NCBI GenBank assembly: GCA_021797025.1
Contig: JAKAAK010000158.1
Location: 1 to 7,379 of the forward strand
From: Thermoplasmata archaeon
GTDB lineage: Archaea > Thermoplasmatota > Thermoplasmata > Thermoplasmatales > Thermoplasmataceae
Direction of reading: 5' to 3'
Length of the DNA: 7,379 bases
Under the pieces are notes generated by a model. That model made no database searches. It was given only the letters and a program-made list of their open reading frames with translations, and was not told the DNA's origin. The first letter of the stretch is position 1, and the number at the start of each line of letters is the position of its first letter. A program made the position numbers and the translations under genes. This document shows positions 1 to 7,379 of the stretch, piece by piece.

Positions 1-495
1 ATTTCAATCCCTACATGGACTTATTTTAACAAGTGCTAATCAGATATGACTTATAACCCTCTAAATATTTCAATCCCTACATGGACTTATTTTAACTCTC
101 CTTATCTGACTATGATAAAGAAAATTCTCCTCGATTTCAATCCCTACATGGACTTATTTTAACGTGGAGCATAAAGCTCTACGGGGAGGATATGGACAGA
201 TTTCAATCCCTACATGGACTTATTTTAACCTAAACTTAGTGCATATGTTGTTAATGCCATTCCCATTTCAATCCCTACATGGACTTATTTTAACAAAAAT
301 GGAATTCACAAATATGAATGAATTCTACGAAATTTCAATCCCTACATGGACTTATTTTAACCAAATTATAATTATATAACAATAATATACAGCCTATCAT
401 TTCAATCCCTACATGGACTTATTTTAACTATGATTTCTACTTGCTGCGATATTCTTTTAAACTCCATTTCAATCCCTACATGGACTTATTTTAAC
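1..495 (-). CRISPR. CRISPR array, 8 identical 30-bp repeats and 7 spacers, continuing past the left edge
   Basis: Eight perfect copies of a 30-bp repeat (plus strand begins ATTTCAATCCC and ends TTATTTTAAC) lie at 1-30, 67-96, 134-163, 200-229, 265-294, 332-361, 399-428 and 466-495. The seven spacers are 31-66, 97-133, 164-199, 230-264, 295-331, 362-398 and 429-465 (35-37 bp) and share no sequence. The bases flanking the repeats vary, so 30 bp is the true repeat length. I infer transcription from the minus strand: read that way the repeat begins GTTAAAAT and ends ATTGAAAT, the usual 8-nt crRNA 5' handle, and the AT-rich leader lies on the upstream side next to cas2. The newest spacer should therefore be 429-465. 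The first base of the window is the first base of a repeat, so more units probably lie to the left. The repeat has only a very weak internal stem, as is common for archaeal I-A/I-B repeats processed by Cas6. Confidence 0.98.
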
Positions 496-663: not shown

Positions 664-927
664 CTATAAAATATTGGTTGGTTCTTTTTTTGGTGTTCCT
701 ATATTACAGGTACTGAGGTATTTATTAGACGACATTATATAAATTTTAATAAAATCAGATTCAATAACTATTTTCTTATGTAGAAAATTTTGAACTCTGA
801 CCAATTGAGACTCTGTGATTTCTCCTTCAAAAACAGAATTTTGAATCCAGTTAAGGAATCTTTTCAAAAATTTCCTTATAACATTAATCCTTTCTTCTCC
901 TATGTCATATACAATTATCACATACAT
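664..927 (-). CDS. cas2: CRISPR-associated endonuclease Cas2
   Basis: Cas2 (87 residues) forms the dimer at the centre of the Cas1-Cas2 integration complex that inserts new spacers. The sequence opens with the beta-strand MYVIIVYDI, whose Asp8 is the conserved acidic residue of the family. The signature block WIQNSVFEGEI follows at about residues 27-37, then a predicted strand IKIYIMSS, and the protein ends with the usual G-x-P-KK...IL tail, so it looks complete. The ATG lies 3 bp after the cas1 stop, with GTGGTGG at the cas1 3' end as a modest ribosome-binding site. It is the last gene of the operon before the leader. In many type I systems Cas2 acts as a scaffold and nuclease activity is dispensable for integration. 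Confidence 0.97.
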   Translation of the reverse strand: MYVIIVYDIGEERINVIRKFLKRFLNWIQNSVFEGEITESQLVRVQNFLHKKIVIESDFIKIYIMSSNKYLSTCNIGTPKKEPTNIL

Positions 928-930
928 GAC

Positions 931-1917
931 CTACCACCACATTACAAAGGGTTTATAATTTTTTAATCCTAGTAAATGTTTCTCTATTTTATACACTTCT
1001 AGCCTAATTAAATCTTGATAACTTACTTGTTTTTTTAGGTCTCTATGTAATATATGATCATTCAATCTACTTTCATAATTTGTTAAGTATAGTTTTTTGC
1101 CTGCATCATTTAAAACTACCTTATCAATGCCCGTATCAAAGTGATCCTCCTTTATTATTCTTTTATTTACCAGATATAAAAAAAGTCTATGAGATATGAT
1201 TGGTTTAAATATTTCAGCAATATCCAGTGCAAGTGAAAATCTTCTTTCAGATGGTTCGTGTAGATATGAAATAGTTGGATTAAGATGAGTATAATATATC
1301 TCCGAGAGAACTGATGCGTAAATTAAGCTGTTGCCAAACGATATTAACGAATTGCCCATATTTGTTGGGGGTCTTCTTTCACGCTTATTTATTCTATAAT
1401 TATCTGGTATGACTGAATCTATTCCTTTAAAATAAGAATTATGTGCTCTGCCTTCTACTCCCATCAAGTCTGGAATAGATTCAACGTCGTTCAATTTTTG
1501 TAATTCATTCATCATACGCTCCTTACTTCTTGAAATTATTGAATTATTATACGGAGATAATATTCGATTAAAATTATTAATTGCTCCTGATACGAATGAC
1601 TTTGCGATAGTCATTCTACTCTCATCATTTAAATAAAATTGAGCCTGTTTTATTATCATGTCTCCAGATATTTCCTTTTCCTTGGGCCACAATGTCGCTT
1701 CGTAATTACCATAATAACCAAAAAAATGTATAGGTATTCCTATTTTTGAAATAGCTGATATTGTTCCGCTCGATATTGACAAAGGTTTATGTGCATATAT
1801 TGATAAAACATTCTCTATAGGAATTGCATTCTTACCCGCGGAATTTTCAATTATTATAGTTCCTCCATCAATATTTATACTTCCTTCATGGATTATATGA
1901 TAGTCTATTTTCCCCAT
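931..1917 (-). CDS. cas1: CRISPR-associated integrase Cas1 (type I-B)
   Basis: Cas1 (328 residues) is the metal-dependent integrase that joins prespacers to the first repeat. The N-terminal beta domain contains the IPIENVLSIYAH and GIPIHFFGYYGNY blocks (about 32-43 and 60-72). The catalytic helical domain carries the expected metal ligands Glu155 in GVEG, His220 in LHEPSERR, and Asp232/Glu235 in LDIAEIFKP. The RRPPTNMGNSLISFGNSLIY block (181-200) is typical of this family. I place the start at the ATG at 1917, one base after the cas4 stop, because the family N-terminus aligns there and GGTG lies five bases upstream. The frame is open farther up to a GTG at 1989, but those 24 residues (rich in Arg and Lys) lie over the Cys cluster of cas4 and do not resemble Cas1. 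Confidence 0.97.
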   Translation of the reverse strand: MGKIDYHIIHEGSINIDGGTIIIENSAGKNAIPIENVLSIYAHKPLSISSGTISAISKIGIPIHFFGYYGNYEATLWPKEKEISGDMIIKQAQFYLNDESRMTIAKSFVSGAINNFNRILSPYNNSIISRSKERMMNELQKLNDVESIPDLMGVEGRAHNSYFKGIDSVIPDNYRINKRERRPPTNMGNSLISFGNSLIYASVLSEIYYTHLNPTISYLHEPSERRFSLALDIAEIFKPIISHRLFLYLVNKRIIKEDHFDTGIDKVVLNDAGKKLYLTNYESRLNDHILHRDLKKQVSYQDLIRLEVYKIEKHLLGLKNYKPFVMWW

Positions 1918-1918
1918 T

Positions 1919-2428
1919 TTAACACCAGCAAAAATTGAAATAAGCACACGATCCACAGTATTTTTTCTTCTTCGGTTGCGGGACTTCACTATTGAGAATT
2001 TTTTTGATGTTTATTAATGCAATCTCTATCATTTCAATTGAATCACTGTTTAGAATGATTTTCTCGTGCTTATTTATGGAGGGATAATCCAAAATTCCAA
2101 CAGCAGTTACACCCTTCTCATTTAATCGATAAAGATAATATAAAAGTTGAATTTTGTGAGCATTTTCTAATTTGTTTGATTTTTTTATTTCATGTACCTC
2201 TAAACCTCTGCCTGTTCTAACAAAATCATATTTCACATTTTCCATAACGACCTCCTTTTTTTCTTTTTTATACCTTTCCTCATGCAAAATTTTTCCTAAC
2301 ATTACATTCTCATTGTAAGCTTCCATTGATATATGATGTGAAAATAGCCATAATTTCGTATCACATATTAAGTAATATGACATCTGCACACCGGAAATAT
2401 TATCTCTATATCGACCTATTTCTTCCAT
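1919..2428 (-). CDS. cas4: CRISPR-associated Cas4, iron-sulfur RecB-like nuclease
   Basis: Cas4 (169 residues) trims prespacers and helps select those next to a proper PAM before Cas1-Cas2 integrates them. The sequence has the PD-(D/E)XK RecB-like core: His49 in GKILHE, Asp68 in KYDFV, Glu80-x-Lys82 in EVHEIKKS, and the QxxxY motif at 94-98 (QLLYY). The four cysteines expected for the 4Fe-4S cluster are present: Cys22 near the N-terminus, and Cys158, Cys161 and Cys167 in the C-terminal CGSC...C cluster, with an extra Cys169 as the last residue. The start at 2428 is supported by GAGGTG five bases upstream. Its position between cas3 and cas1 is the normal type I-B order. All known active-site residues are present, so it should be active. 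Confidence 0.96.
   Translation of the reverse strand: MEEIGRYRDNISGVQMSYYLICDTKLWLFSHHISMEAYNENVMLGKILHEERYKKEKKEVVMENVKYDFVRTGRGLEVHEIKKSNKLENAHKIQLLYYLYRLNEKGVTAVGILDYPSINKHEKIILNSDSIEMIEIALINIKKILNSEVPQPKKKKYCGSCAYFNFCWC
1923..1928 (-). promoter_or_regulatory. Ribosome-binding site that decides the cas1 start
   Basis: The minus strand reads CTGGTG five bases before the ATG at 1917. It lies within the last codons of cas4, so cas1 translation is probably coupled to that of cas4. It supports the ATG start over the upstream GTG at 1989. Confidence 0.55.
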
Positions 2429-2433
2429 TGTTA

Positions 2434-2439
2434 CACCTC
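2434..2439 (-). promoter_or_regulatory. Ribosome-binding site of cas4 overlapping the cas3 stop
   Basis: The minus strand reads TGAGGTG. The TGA is the stop codon of cas3 (2440-2438) and GAGGTG is a strong Shine-Dalgarno site five bases before the cas4 ATG. The overlap suggests coupled translation of cas3 and cas4. It is also a useful reference for the identical GAGGTG inside cas8. Confidence 0.75.
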
Positions 2440-4681
2440 AATATATATTTGACTCTATATCTTCTTTCTCAAATAATATACCGGAGTTTTCATTATATGC
2501 ATAATCAAAATACGGTATGTTAAATTCAGATTCCCTGTAATAACCATGAATAGCGTGTTTAGTTTTATTAGTGAAAGGCACATTGATTGAATGCTTTAAA
2601 AATTCAAGCCATCCCTTATATTTTGAGTCCTGGTATGCAAGATAGATTTGGTTGTAATATTTTTTAGGTATGCACAGAATTTTTGGATAATCTATGTCCC
2701 TAACCAAATTAAACCGGCCGGCCGTAAATTCATCTACCTCGAATTTATATATACCTTTCAGATTTTTATATAATCTATTATCATCCCTTATTTTGGTAAG
2801 GTGTTTAGCAAGGGATTCTAAATATTCTTCATTGTTATATGTCTCATTTATAACTTCTTTAATATTCTCTTGAGTTAAAGTCTCTATATTTTTAAAATAA
2901 TCATACGATTTTTCCATATATTTTCTATCATATACATACTCCGCATTACCTGTCCATCTATAAATAAAAATTTTTGAATTTTCATTCCTGCCATAACGGT
3001 TAACTCTTCCAAAACGTTGAATCAAAGCATCTGGAGGGGGCACTTCAGTAAAAAGAATATCGAAATTAATATCTAAACTAACTTCTACAATCTGTGTGCA
3101 TATAGCTATTATATTATGAGTATTCTCAGATTCAAGCTTATTAGATTTCGCTTGCTTATGCTCGAAGGAAAATTGGCTGTGGAAAAGGATTATTTCCCTG
3201 CTTATATCCTGGTCCTCTATTAAAGCATCATACAGCAACCTAGCTGTTTTTATGGTGTTTACAATTACAAGAATTTTGTCATATTGTAAATTTTGTTTGA
3301 TGTCGGGTATGCAACTCAGTATATCCTCTTCACATACCTCTATTCTGCTTTCGTATTCTCTTTCCATAATAAATTCTCTTTCGCTAAATTTTATTTTACA
3401 ATTCTCTGTTATGAAATTTTTTAAAGAATCGGGTATGGTTGCACTTATCAGAAGTATATTGGGATTGAATATTGATATAGTATTGAGGAATTCTATCATC
3501 AATCCGAGCGACCTTGGATCGTATGCATGAATTTCATCCAGCACGATGTTACTGATGAGTGAATTGAATGTTATACTGTCCCATCTGTTAATATTGTATA
3601 TTGAAAACAATAATTGATCTATTGTAGACACCATAATTGGCATATTAAATGTTTTGGAATAGAATTTAGAAAAATCATTTTGATCGTACTCTGCAGTATC
3701 TGAATTCACAAGGAATAGATCCGAGGTACTATGCAATAGACCAACATATTCCCTAGGAAAAACTTTGCACAGACGATCGAAAATTTTGTTTGTTGTGTTC
3801 ATGGTAGGCAGTAAATACAAAAGTTTACCTTTATTATTTTGAGACCATAACAAAGCGGCTTCTGTTTTACCTGATCCAGTGGGACTTTGTATTATATATG
3901 ACCCTGAATTTGTTTCCGTGAATTTTTGCATTTCATTAAGCCCATTAAAGTTTTTTAATGATTTTAGGTAATTATATACTTTATCACCATATTCCGGCAA
4001 TAAATTAAATTTGGCCCCAGAACTAGCATGCCAATCGCATATATGCAATATATTTTCCATTAAGGTATAAACATACCGTAACTTTTTAAGGTCACCTGTT
4101 TTGAGTGTTTGGATTCTGTTATGTATTGCACTTATAGGGGAGGAATAGTTACCCTTTTCTACTATTGTATTGGATATAAAAACATCGTTGCCGAATACTT
4201 CTTTGTATGCGCCTTTAACAAAAGCGAGAAACTTATCGTAATTACAAAGATCTAATTTATCTAGGTTGGATTGCCCATTCAAGAATGATTTACTCCTTAA
4301 CATTGTATGATGGGAGAGCACGCATAAGGTGGAAATTGGAATTTCACGGAATAACAGGTCTTCCTTTCTATTCTCATAATTAGTCCTAACCTCCATGGCG
4401 GAAATCAATGCATGTGGTAATGCCTTTTTTGTACCATTTACTTTCCGTATCATTTCCTGAAATGACAAATCAACTTTGCCAAAATCATGGAAAGCTACGG
4501 CCATAAAAGTGTGCTTCCAGAAATAATCCCTATCCATTTTAATGCTTTCGAGACCAATATTTATTTTATCCCCTATTTGGTTTTTTACTAATCTATAATT
4601 ATCCAAACACTTTTTTGTATGTTCAAGGAGGGTTTCGCCACTAGATTTTGCTATTATTTCAGTACAATATGACGTCTGCAT
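2438..4681 (-). CDS. cas3: CRISPR-associated nuclease-helicase Cas3 (HD-DExH fusion)
   Basis: Cas3 is recruited by target-bound Cascade and unwinds and cuts the target DNA. With the ATG at 4681 it has 747 residues. The N-terminal HD nuclease shows His21, the HD pair His65-Asp66 in AFHDFGK, His90, the double His124-His125 in SHHT, and Asp216 in CDWHAS. The helicase follows: Walker A SPTGSGKT (266-273), the DExH box DEIH (382-385), SAT (413-415), motif V TQIVEVSLDI (529-538) and motif VI QRFGRVNRYGR (555-565). The HD and helicase parts are in one chain, and all catalytic motifs are intact. The start is uncertain: ATGs also occur at 4696, 4693 and 4690, and a TTG at 4714. I prefer 4681 because about ten residues before AKSSGETLLEHT is typical. 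Any of these overlaps the end of cas5 (23 bp for 4681). Confidence 0.96.
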   Translation of the reverse strand: MQTSYCTEIIAKSSGETLLEHTKKCLDNYRLVKNQIGDKINIGLESIKMDRDYFWKHTFMAVAFHDFGKVDLSFQEMIRKVNGTKKALPHALISAMEVRTNYENRKEDLLFREIPISTLCVLSHHTMLRSKSFLNGQSNLDKLDLCNYDKFLAFVKGAYKEVFGNDVFISNTIVEKGNYSSPISAIHNRIQTLKTGDLKKLRYVYTLMENILHICDWHASSGAKFNLLPEYGDKVYNYLKSLKNFNGLNEMQKFTETNSGSYIIQSPTGSGKTEAALLWSQNNKGKLLYLLPTMNTTNKIFDRLCKVFPREYVGLLHSTSDLFLVNSDTAEYDQNDFSKFYSKTFNMPIMVSTIDQLLFSIYNINRWDSITFNSLISNIVLDEIHAYDPRSLGLMIEFLNTISIFNPNILLISATIPDSLKNFITENCKIKFSEREFIMEREYESRIEVCEEDILSCIPDIKQNLQYDKILVIVNTIKTARLLYDALIEDQDISREIILFHSQFSFEHKQAKSNKLESENTHNIIAICTQIVEVSLDINFDILFTEVPPPDALIQRFGRVNRYGRNENSKIFIYRWTGNAEYVYDRKYMEKSYDYFKNIETLTQENIKEVINETYNNEEYLESLAKHLTKIRDDNRLYKNLKGIYKFEVDEFTAGRFNLVRDIDYPKILCIPKKYYNQIYLAYQDSKYKGWLEFLKHSINVPFTNKTKHAIHGYYRESEFNIPYFDYAYNENSGILFEKEDIESNIY

Positions 4682-5363
4682 CGTAACCATCATCATATAT
4701 TGCTTCGTATCCAAATCTTTTTATTTTCAACTTTAAATTCATTACCTCAGTTACTTTACAAAAATTTTCTGGTTCTCTATACCCATTTTTTATAGCAAAT
4801 GATAACGGCATCTGTCTGCTTACAAGCGGCGCTACGGTACCTCCGTTAACTTCATCTATATCAAAATCATTTACCTCAAATGGAACGATTGTATTTGAAA
4901 CGATGACATAATCGGATTCGATGGTGTCTTTTTCAATTCTGGATATTTCAGATATATCAATAATTTCATGCGACTTACCCAAGCTCAGGGCATATACAGG
5001 ATTTTTGAGTGCCTCATATATTTCATCTAAATTTTTAGAATTTTCTATATAAATTGTATATGAATTGCCATAATTAATCTGTCTTTGCAACTGCCCCTTT
5101 TGGACCTCAGATTTCAATTTATAGATGCTCATAAGATCATAATATCTTGCATTCGAGAATCCCAGTACCCCAATATAAGTATCGTTGTAGAGGGCTATTA
5201 AATTTTGATCTGTCCTGCTATAACCCAGTGCCGCGCCTAGCATTCCTATTATCGTTGTTTTTGGTGGAAGGGTTAAGGTATCGTGCACTGTCATATGGAA
5301 TGGAATCCTAAATGAGTTTGTGATACCGTGCACTTTTATTTTAATAAGTTTAATTCTGTTCAT
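4659..5363 (-). CDS. cas5: Cascade subunit Cas5 (type I-B)
   Basis: Cas5 (234 residues) caps the 5' handle of the crRNA and contacts Cas8 and the first Cas7 in Cascade. The N-terminal RAMP-type fold is recognisable from KIKVHGITNSFRIP (8-21) followed by the family signature LPPKTTIIGMLGAALG (32-47). Later segments with GKSHEIIDI (129-137) and PLVSRQMPLSF (179-189) also fit Cas5 of the Cst5/DevS kind. The gene overlaps the end of cas7 by 14 bp and the start of cas3 by 23 bp or more. The ATG at 5363 has a modest AGTGA site five bases upstream, inside cas7. I see no clear histidine-based active site of the sort that lets Cas5d of type I-C process crRNA, so a separate Cas6 is expected. Confidence 0.93.
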   Translation of the reverse strand: MNRIKLIKIKVHGITNSFRIPFHMTVHDTLTLPPKTTIIGMLGAALGYSRTDQNLIALYNDTYIGVLGFSNARYYDLMSIYKLKSEVQKGQLQRQINYGNSYTIYIENSKNLDEIYEALKNPVYALSLGKSHEIIDISEISRIEKDTIESDYVIVSNTIVPFEVNDFDIDEVNGGTVAPLVSRQMPLSFAIKNGYREPENFCKVTEVMNLKLKIKRFGYEAIYDDGYDADVILY

Positions 5364-6276
5364 TCAATTCACTTATTTGCAATGAATCTATATCTTTGTA
5401 TATAGCATCAAAAGCCTCATTTATATTCAAAATATTTTTTATCCCAGTAACATCTAATTCATTATGATTTTTGATTATTGTATCTATGCCCACAATAGTA
5501 TTTACACTAATGTCTCTGCTATTCAGGTATCCATTTTTGAGTAAATTGACATCAATATTTCGATCTTCGTCCATTAAAACGTAATCTAGATACGATGGTT
5601 TTTTAATAATTTGGGATTGGTATATAATGAACTTTGGAGACATGTCTGAAAGCAGCCTGCTCTGCTTACCTCCACCCCAGAGATGCTGGTAACTCTTTAT
5701 AACAGCTTTTATCCTATTTTTCTTCTCATTATCACTTATAAATTGTTTGAACCCACCTCTTCCTATTCTATCCATTTCTATTAAAACTGTATAAACATAA
5801 AAATTATCAGAGATCTCAGTTTCATAAAATCTGTTGGATTTACCAATATCGTTGTTATTTTGCAATCCCAAGTCTCTCTCAAAGTTATAAGGGAAAAATG
5901 AGATGGCTGGCGAAACTCTAACAGGGCTTATTCTAGAAATTGTTGATTCGTCCTTCTTCCCTTTCTTCCCTGTTTTCATATAGCCATAAAGATCGTCGTC
6001 AATATTTTTTTCCGGATCTGTTTCTGTGGGTATCGGCTGCTTCTCATTTGTTACAGACTCGGGTATCTTGCTTGAAATATGATAACCCATTGATTTGAGT
6101 TGATCCCGGCTCATTCTTCTTAAGGCCTGACCGCTTATATAAGCTCTCATTGTTGAATCGGGAAGCCTTATCTTCTTTATTGTAGAAATTATATCTTCTC
6201 CCCATCCTCCATTCACATTCCCATTTACCTTTACGATTACCGTAAATGTCACACAATTTACTTTCTGTTCGTACAT
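5350..6276 (-). CDS. cas7: Cascade backbone subunit Cas7 (Cst2/DevR family)
   Basis: Cas7 (308 residues) binds the crRNA in multiple copies and forms the Cascade backbone. The Cst2/DevR family is indicated by the opening strand VTFTVIVKVNGNVNGG (9-24), then YISGQALRRM (46-55), DDDLYGYM (93-100), ISPVRVSPAIS (116-126), and the Gly-rich GGGKQSRLLSDMSP (201-214). Between the last two lies VYTVLIEMDRIGRGGF (161-176). Residues 66-111 are a charged and Pro-rich stretch that includes KTGKKGKKDES and is probably a flexible loop. The ATG at 6276 is one base after the cas8 stop and six bases after AGGTGA. The family is the same one as DevR of the Myxococcus developmental CRISPR locus, here in an ordinary cas operon. 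Confidence 0.95.
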   Translation of the reverse strand: MYEQKVNCVTFTVIVKVNGNVNGGWGEDIISTIKKIRLPDSTMRAYISGQALRRMSRDQLKSMGYHISSKIPESVTNEKQPIPTETDPEKNIDDDLYGYMKTGKKGKKDESTISRISPVRVSPAISFFPYNFERDLGLQNNNDIGKSNRFYETEISDNFYVYTVLIEMDRIGRGGFKQFISDNEKKNRIKAVIKSYQHLWGGGKQSRLLSDMSPKFIIYQSQIIKKPSYLDYVLMDEDRNIDVNLLKNGYLNSRDISVNTIVGIDTIIKNHNELDVTGIKNILNINEAFDAIYKDIDSLQISELNEQN

Positions 6277-6277
6277 T

Positions 6278-6583
6278 TTAATTCACCTGTTCGTTTCTTG
6301 GCTTCTGCTTCTGATAAAAGACCTGATGCGCAAATATTGAAATTAATGACTTTATATCCTGCCAGTTTTTAGTATCCATTTCTTTCAACAAATTCGTTGG
6401 AACATTTAAATTATCTATCTTAAAAGTTGCACTATCCAGGAATTGCAGAAACTGGCCAACGTTTGTACAGCTCCTTAGCTCGTATAGCATATCTTTATCC
6501 TCTGGTTTCGAGTCCCCACCCTTGCAGTATTCTCCTATAGTGGCCCCTATATAGTAGCACGTATTAATCAAATTTTTATCCAT
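6278..6583 (-). CDS. cas11: Possible Cas11 small subunit, internal in-frame start within cas8
   Basis: The last 101 codons of cas8 can be translated on their own. The ATG at 6583 (protein beginning MDKNLINTCYYIG) is in frame with cas8 and lies six bases after GAGGTG, the same sequence used by cas4 and nearly the same spacing. The product appears all helical, with amphipathic stretches around residues 4-20, 32-54 and 64-92, and its size fits a Cascade small subunit. It is established that in types I-B, I-C and I-D the small subunit Cas11 is made from an internal start in the large-subunit gene, and no separate small-subunit gene is present here. Another ATG at 6589 directly abuts the GAGGTG and is less likely. 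That this start is used is an inference. Alternatively the motif reflects chance codon use for Glu-Glu-Val-Met. Confidence 0.55.
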   Translation of the reverse strand: MDKNLINTCYYIGATIGEYCKGGDSKPEDKDMLYELRSCTNVGQFLQFLDSATFKIDNLNVPTNLLKEMDTKNWQDIKSLISIFAHQVFYQKQKPRNEQVN

Positions 6584-7379
6584 TTTCATCACCTCTTCAT
6601 TATAAGTATACAAGAAAGCATTCAATTTATTTATATGCATACTGTCACTCTGCGTTCTCCCAGTTGCCTGAACTTTTCCCTCCGCGTCAAGCCCGTTAAC
6701 ACGCGTATTTTTAGTTTTTATATAATCACCATAAAATAGTTCTATGTCATGATTTACATCCTCAAAAAATACTATTTTTCTTGATATTTCCCTCTCATAA
6801 ACATAATTATTGCTGCTATTATTATGGATTATAAACTTTCTAACTAATTTAGGCAAATTTATATCCTTCCTGTCCAGGGTTTCAATCAGTTGAAATAATC
6901 TTTTTGAGTCATTATATGTGTACAGGCTTCTTATAATGTCTGCTGTTGAATACCCAATTATCCAAGATAGGCTTTTCCAAGAATTTACTATATCTTTTTC
7001 ATTTTCCTGGAAGTCTATTTCGGTATTTATATTATTTACAATTTTATCGTCTATATATTTAATTAGCTCGATAAAAGAGTAAAAAGGATCATTAGTGGTT
7101 TTCTTTGAGAAGTTAGAATAGTCATTAAGAGCAGATAGATCAGTATTAGTTTCTAGGAACTTCCATATTTTTTGATTTTCTGATTTTAAAGTAATAACAG
7201 GAGAGGCAAAAAACAAGGCTTTATCCGAAATTGCATATGGCAAACTATTATAAACCATGAATGAGGAAATTGCGCATAAAATGCATATATTCATTCCCCT
7301 TTTGAAATTACTATTAAAATTTCTATATTTCCCTAAGCTAGCTGTAAATGGATAATATGTTGTTTGTATCTTGCTAGAT
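6278..7379 (-). CDS. cas8: Cascade large subunit Cas8 (Cst1/Cas8b-like), 5' end outside the window
   Basis: This is the C-terminal part (366 complete codons) of the Cascade large subunit, which recognises the PAM and recruits Cas3. The reading frame has no stop up to the right edge, so the ATG at 7294 is almost certainly internal. The 28 codons before it encode YYPFTASLGK (residues 8-17 in the window) and FKRGMNICILC (25-35), the conserved block with a CxxC (Cys32, Cys35) that marks the Cst1/DevT-like Cas8 family. KALFFASP (53-60) follows. That ATG also lacks a properly spaced ribosome-binding site: AGGGGA abuts it. The rest diverges, as is usual for Cas8, and appears mostly helical; only this one CxxC pair is visible. 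The gene ends one base before cas7. Its last 101 codons may also be translated separately as Cas11. Confidence 0.85.
   Translation of the reverse strand, partial: SSKIQTTYYPFTASLGKYRNFNSNFKRGMNICILCAISSFMVYNSLPYAISDKALFFASPVITLKSENQKIWKFLETNTDLSALNDYSNFSKKTTNDPFYSFIELIKYIDDKIVNNINTEIDFQENEKDIVNSWKSLSWIIGYSTADIIRSLYTYNDSKRLFQLIETLDRKDINLPKLVRKFIIHNNSSNNYVYEREISRKIVFFEDVNHDIELFYGDYIKTKNTRVNGLDAEGKVQATGRTQSDSMHINKLNAFLYTYNEEVMKMDKNLINTCYYIGATIGEYCKGGDSKPEDKDMLYELRSCTNVGQFLQFLDSATFKIDNLNVPTNLLKEMDTKNWQDIKSLISIFAHQVFYQKQKPRNEQVN
6283..6288 (-). promoter_or_regulatory. Ribosome-binding site of cas7 inside the end of cas8
   Basis: The minus strand reads AGGTGA six bases before the cas7 ATG, within the last codons of cas8 (encoding Gln-Val-Asn). 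It suggests translational coupling of cas8 and cas7 and allows high output of the multi-copy backbone subunit. Confidence 0.7.
6590..6595 (-). promoter_or_regulatory. Internal ribosome-binding site in cas8 for Cas11
   Basis: GAGGTG on the minus strand, extended to AGAGGTGAT, is strongly complementary to the usual 16S rRNA 3' end (anti-Shine-Dalgarno CACCTC). It is followed after six bases (ATGAAA) by an in-frame ATG at 6583. Other AGGTG or GAGGTG stretches inside the operon's genes, for example near 4095 and 5757, have no suitably placed start codon. Confidence 0.6.

Follow-up and report, generated by a model that had tools for sequence, protein, structure and literature searches.

Does the cas8 gene of an archaeal type I-B CRISPR-Cas locus give rise to a second protein, the small subunit Cas11b, by a start site of its own? 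This question is raised by a stretch of 7,379 nucleotides from a Thermoplasmata archaeon (contig JAKAAK010000158.1; the whole stretch is called the window in the following), in which the 3' part of cas8, encoding the type I-B large subunit, lies at 6278..7379 on the minus strand, its 5' end being beyond the window. The initial annotation of this DNA had suggested that an in-frame ATG six bases behind a GAGGTG motif near the 3' end of cas8 starts a helical protein of small-subunit size. Sequence comparison and the modelled fold of the predicted product make it very probable that an internal, Shine-Dalgarno-driven start in cas8 indeed makes Cas11b.

The proposed internal start site and its conservation

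Direct reading of the cas8 frame on the minus strand (AAT GAA GAG GTG ATG AAA ATG GAT AAA) confirmed both the motif and the start codon. The internal Shine-Dalgarno site GAGGTGAT (6588..6595, minus strand) lies within the cas8 codons GAG GTG AT. After GAGGTG and a spacer of six bases (ATGAAA) follows the proposed Cas11b start codon ATG (6581..6583, minus strand), 101 codons ahead of the cas8 stop, which ends at 6278. The proposed small subunit (6278..6583, minus strand) would thus comprise 101 amino acids; it and its start codon are in frame with cas8. The likeness to the ribosome-binding site of cas4 claimed before holds, too: cas4 starts with TTGAGGTGTAACA-ATG, the GAGGTG core is common to both sites and the spacers measure 5 (cas4) and 6 bases (internal site).

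GAGGTGAT shows complementarity to the 16S tail GGATCACCTCC, as read from the 16S genes of a Ferroplasma genome (G001) and of G105, one of six relatives introduced below; three of these six have a genome in which an archaeal 16S gene could be located. The predicted duplex of GAGGTGAT with the tail amounts to -13.2 kcal/mol, compared to a mean of -2.62 (standard deviation 2.83) over the cas8 fragment. This value is reached by only 3 of the 346 codons and by a single one of the 17 in-frame start-type codons scored in the fragment, namely ATG 6583. As a yardstick, the predicted duplexes at other start sites of the window are -8.4 for cas7, -3.9 for cas5, -1.8 for cas3, -9.5 for cas4 and -8.2 for cas2. 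If codons are redrawn synonymously (amino acids fixed, codons taken from the gene), 5.0% of the draws reach the value of the window. The window alone is therefore only suggestive, and it is the relatives that carry the case. An Rfam search of the window gave no match.

Seven protein homologues of Cas8 were found (P0001 to P0007), and a profile search at protein level led to these seven again. P0001 is a full-length Cas8 homologue with 93% identity; P0002 shows 84%. A scan of genome contigs gave two loci, one in Ferroplasma acidarmanus Fer1 (43% identity) and one in the Thermoplasmata metagenome-assembled genome TL1-4.bin55 (42%), so that the window probably stems from an organism related to these two. 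The DNA set consisted of six relatives, L001, L002 (Ferroplasma), G105, G025, G133 and G522, two of them from the genome-contig scan. The other four came from three sets of related genomes (117, 400 and 389 searched), in which 4, 5 and 6 genomes, partly the same ones, matched. Identity to P0001 is 44% for L001, 46% for L002, 25% for G105 and 22% each for G025 and G133; G522 was recovered by the PADLOC profile only. G002, G105 and G025 belong to the same order as G001 (117 genomes searched), G133 and G522 to other orders. Two of the six genomes matched in the set of 389, G465 (L018) and G562 (L019), gave N-terminal fragments that cover only positions 60-127 and 18-94, respectively, of the PADLOC profile with its 401 positions; they were dropped before counting because their matches stop short of the C-terminal region. 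Plasmids gave no match, viral contigs no confirmed relative and further genome searches no additional gene.

The methionine encoded at 6583 is the same in all eight protein sequences (window and seven homologues). At DNA level, a GGAGG-type site followed by ATG or GTG is present at the same domain junction in all six relatives; counting the window, 7 of 7 genes have a site and a start at the homologous place. The aligned start column itself holds ATG or GTG in six of the seven DNA sequences; the seventh, G522, has an ATG two residues upstream. In L001 the region reads AAG GAG GCG ATA AAA ATG, in Ferroplasma L002 CAG GAG GTA ATG AAT ATG, in G025 AAG GAG GTG TTA AAC GTG and in G133 AAG GAG GTA CTG AAA ATG. 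Glu-Val codons hold the site in the window as well as in L002, G025 and G133, Glu-Ala codons in L001. Two further relatives carry it in other codon phases: G105 (TTG GGA GGG AAT GAA ATG) in GGA GGG, encoding Gly-Gly, and G522 (GAA TGG AGG TGG GAA AAA ATG) in TGG AGG TGG, encoding Trp-Arg-Trp. With different amino acids and another codon phase in these two genes, a constraint on shared amino acids cannot explain the site. Judged from these sequences, what is conserved at the internal site is the nucleotide sequence, not the amino acid sequence. Site and start are kept beyond what the protein requires, and none of the six relatives keeps the amino acids while losing the site.

In G025 the start codon is GTG (L006 1702-1704), Val replacing Met by the very Val codon that is able to start.

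An alignment of the seven genes yielded 410 columns occupied by at least six genes. Start-type codons in at least five genes occur in just one of them, the internal-start column (6 of 7 genes). With -12.63 this column also has the strongest mean duplex of all 410, the best value outside its immediate neighbours being -5.92. The fraction of synonymous redraws that reach the observed value was 0.050 for the window, 0.010 for L001, 0.082 for L002, 0.130 for G105, 0.041 for G025, 0.046 for G133 and 0.308 for G522. By Fisher's method, which treats the genes as independent (only roughly true), this synonymous-codon test combines to 3.5e-4, and a test that ranks the site against every scored codon of its gene to 9.4e-9.

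Predicted fold and domain junction

The expectation of a helical product of small-subunit size is borne out by the model, in which the 101 residues form a five-helix bundle with a predicted local distance difference test score (pLDDT) of 88. Upon structural re-alignment against 134 chains, the top five rows are all CRISPR effector chains. One of these best matches is the C-terminal part of a chain from a type I-B CRISPR-associated transposon (CAST), which also matches the whole Cas8 model. The best matches of the full-length P0001 model are type I-B Cascade chains, including 8h67_L and 8ip0_J. The internal start corresponds to Met434 of P0001 and falls in the break between the helices 411-430 and 436-454 of this model. 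Sequence searches of the PDB with the profiles A1 and A4 gave no match (A4 up to E 10); according to PMC11899642, there is no significant sequence similarity between the Cas11 proteins of different subtypes. In the alignments A4 and A5 the row of G105 starts one codon behind its ATG; the statistics given above do not draw on these alignments.

A short way upstream of the part of cas8 that encodes the small subunit, the window has a stretch of 22 residues, RVNGLDAEGKVQATGRTQSDSM (6638-6703, minus strand), which is present in P0001 and P0002, too, and absent from P0003-P0007. Its counterpart in the P0001 model (393-412) has a pLDDT below 50. The stretch resembles a linker inserted where the Cas8 core passes into the Cas11-like domain.

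Probable internal initiation and its alternatives

A conserved motif inside a gene may simply reflect the protein encoded. In that case Glu-Val-x-x-Met would matter for Cas8 itself, the site would be a by-product of its codons, and the small subunit would exist only as a fused C-terminal domain, a situation reported for types I-F and I-G (PMC13199841). All eight close sequences share Val and Met, and redraws that encode these amino acids produce such a site by chance in 1 to 31% of cases, depending on the gene. However, the site is kept where Ala stands in place of Val (L001) and where the residues have changed to Gly-Gly-Asn-Glu (G105) or Trp-Arg-Trp-Glu-Lys (G522), and G025 exchanges Met for Val by way of GTG. 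Because the residues vary while the site persists, we rejected protein constraint as the only cause and regard it as unlikely.

The choice of the start codon was considered as well, since ATG 6589 and GTG 6592, which would give products of 103 or 104 amino acids, are both in frame and lie within GAGGTGAT. With the required spacer their scores drop to -1.7 and -0.8 kcal/mol, respectively. Furthermore, Met 6589 is replaced by Ile in P0001 and by Leu in P0004 in the protein alignment, and its codon varies among the genes (ATA in L001, TTA in G025, CTG in G133, AAT in G105). The weak score and missing conservation of ATG 6589 make 6583 the likelier start, and initiation at 6589 or 6592 was rejected as very improbable. 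Internal Shine-Dalgarno-like sites may also pause ribosomes, and the location at a predicted domain junction would suit a signal for pausing or folding that slows ribosomes on their way from the Cas8 core to the C-terminal domain and acts without any initiation. Yet for pausing, a start codon closely behind the site would be unnecessary, and 7 of 7 genes have one; we therefore discarded this explanation, too, as extremely improbable.

Some results are less favourable to an internal Cas11b start. Foldseek alone gave no significant E-values for the 101-residue model. In addition, other in-frame candidates that are as strong as the proposed site or stronger lie 99-153 codons upstream of it in G105 (two) and in G133 (one); these are not shared, as no other column holds start-type codons in at least five genes. 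The openness of the RNA around the start is mixed: in five of the seven genes at most 13% of the codons are as open, which is not so in G133 and G522.

The extra candidates in G105 (L012) and G133 (L013) may be due to chance or represent further internal starts.

If Cas11b is made from the internal start, ribosomes coming from the cas8 start would produce the Cas8b large subunit with the five-helix bundle as its C-terminal domain, while other ribosomes would bind GAGGTGAT in the message, start at ATG 6583 and synthesize the bundle alone. Several copies of Cas11b would then align on the belly of Cascade, next to the C-terminal domain of Cas8b, and would keep hold of the DNA strand that is displaced. 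The production of Cas11b, its copy number and this role we infer from known relatives.

The predicted strength of the internal site exceeds that of the cas8 start site in all four relatives in which the cas8 start was placed (L001 -13.4 vs -10.4, L002 -11.4 vs -10.0, G105 -11.0 vs -7.8, G522 -14.1 vs -9.5). This fits a small subunit in excess, as in the type I-B complex of Synechocystis, for which one Cas8b and three Cas11b are reported (PMC11096372). We further lean towards the view that type I-B cas8 genes throughout the phylum of Ferroplasma have inherited the internal Cas11 start from their ancestor and that it is maintained at RNA level. The site would have moved between codon phases as the protein changed and would have been held at a higher strength than that of the cas8 start, which would provide for an excess of Cas11.

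The CRISPR-Cas locus and related systems

All genes of the window lie on the minus strand. The cas8 fragment matches the PADLOC profile PDLC01582 (Cas8b, E 1.9e-27) and is followed by cas7 of the Cst2/DevR family (5350..6276; TIGR02585 158 bits, cut-off 72.75), cas5 (4659..5363; PF09704 41.2 bits, cut-off 23; TIGR01895 87.4 bits, under the cut-off of 96.7), cas3 (2438..4714; TIGR01587 237.6 bits, cut-off 102.45) and cas4 (1919..2428; PF01930 181.2 bits), the start of which has the comparable GAGGTG site. Two open reading frames (ORFs) follow, which we take to be cas1 (931..1917) and cas2 (664..927) from gene order. Both have corresponding ORFs in L001 and L002, those of cas2 starting with MYVIIVYD; the start of cas1 was set at the methionine of MGKIDYHII by comparison with relatives. 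The CRISPR array (1..495) consists of eight repeats of 30 nucleotides with spacers of 35-37 nucleotides; it starts at the window edge and may be longer. Its eight repeats are identical.

A type I-B set (Cas8b with a Cst2/DevR-type Cas7, Cas5 and Cas3) is present; Cas7 and Cas3 score above the cut-offs of their TIGR models, Cas5 under that of TIGR01895. The earlier assignment to a Cst1/DevT-like lineage stands in part: Cas7 fits it and Cas5 less well, but the match of Cas8 to the Cst1 model is no more than marginal (E 0.94). For Cas7 and Cas5 of the window the nearest lineage is Cst1/TNEAP, to which cas8b1 of Thermotoga maritima belongs, too.

In L001 and L002 the operons are complete and have the order cas6-cas8-cas7-cas5-cas3-cas4-cas1-cas2; cas6 is presumed from its place, the other genes are named by comparison with the window. 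No separate small-subunit gene was found among the same-strand ORFs of at least 60 amino acids, counted from ATG, between cas6 and cas2 of these two operons, and a profile of the segment matched once per genome in 6 of 6 genomes, namely the copy inside cas8. This profile holds five of the six relatives, and it would miss a small subunit of unrelated sequence. The previous observation that no other small-subunit gene is visible is thereby extended to L001 and L002, the window itself being without the region upstream of the cas8 fragment. In Ferroplasma L002, cas2 is followed by an ORF of 349 amino acids (15130-16179) that gives the impression of a transposase.

Among known systems, the archaeal type I-B system of Haloferax volcanii is alike in several respects: the start is in frame and lies within the 3' third of cas8b, a cas11 gene of its own is missing, and a potential Shine-Dalgarno sequence precedes the start. 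There, Cas11b is made by an internal start at Met545 of cas8b and its expression is proven (PMC11899642, which also cites internal Cas11 cases of bacterial types I-B, I-C and I-D), whereas the case of the window is known from sequence and predicted fold. The Haloferax site is, moreover, a potential GGATG only, and the product runs at about 29 kDa on gels compared to 101 amino acids here. In the type I-B1 system of Thermotoga maritima, a Cas11 start inside cas8b1 was likewise proposed in May 2026, and Cas11 was needed for co-purification of Cas8b1 (PMC13199841). This system differs in being bacterial, its site is called suboptimal and was silent in E. coli, and its product has 15.1 kDa. The initial annotation had regarded the use of internal translation in this lineage as inference; this view is partly overtaken by the Thermotoga maritima proposal. 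Among the literature matches listed there was no report for Ferroplasma or Thermoplasmata; the 2020 study of McBride and others, in which internal Cas11 starts were originally described, may contain predictions.

The Synechocystis type I-B Cascade offers a structural parallel, its Cas11b being a helical bundle identical to the C-terminal portion of Cas8b (PMC11096372); the chains 8h67_L and 8ip0_J probably belong to that study. In contrast to the window this system is bacterial, and no profile sequence match from the window family to any solved structure was obtained. Type I-A Cascade chains were also compared (7tr6_E, 9cro_I and 9crp_H), which we take to be Cas11a/Csa5 by their size. Type I-A differs in that the small subunit comes from a gene of its own (PMC13199841).

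Related systems have already been shown or proposed to use this trick, and the window appears to add a new instance, with a signal that persists in distant relatives despite a changed protein. This provides comparative evidence at nucleotide level, from strongly diverged relatives in three orders, for a second protein from cas8 and names start sites that can be tested, e.g. in Ferroplasma acidarmanus. Rebuilding such Cascades may require supplying Cas11. Conservation of a site through changes of codon phase also offers a compact test for other genes hidden within genes. If the internal start is ancestral, it would represent a widespread archaeal case of in-frame internal initiation driven by a Shine-Dalgarno site and include a variant started by GTG.
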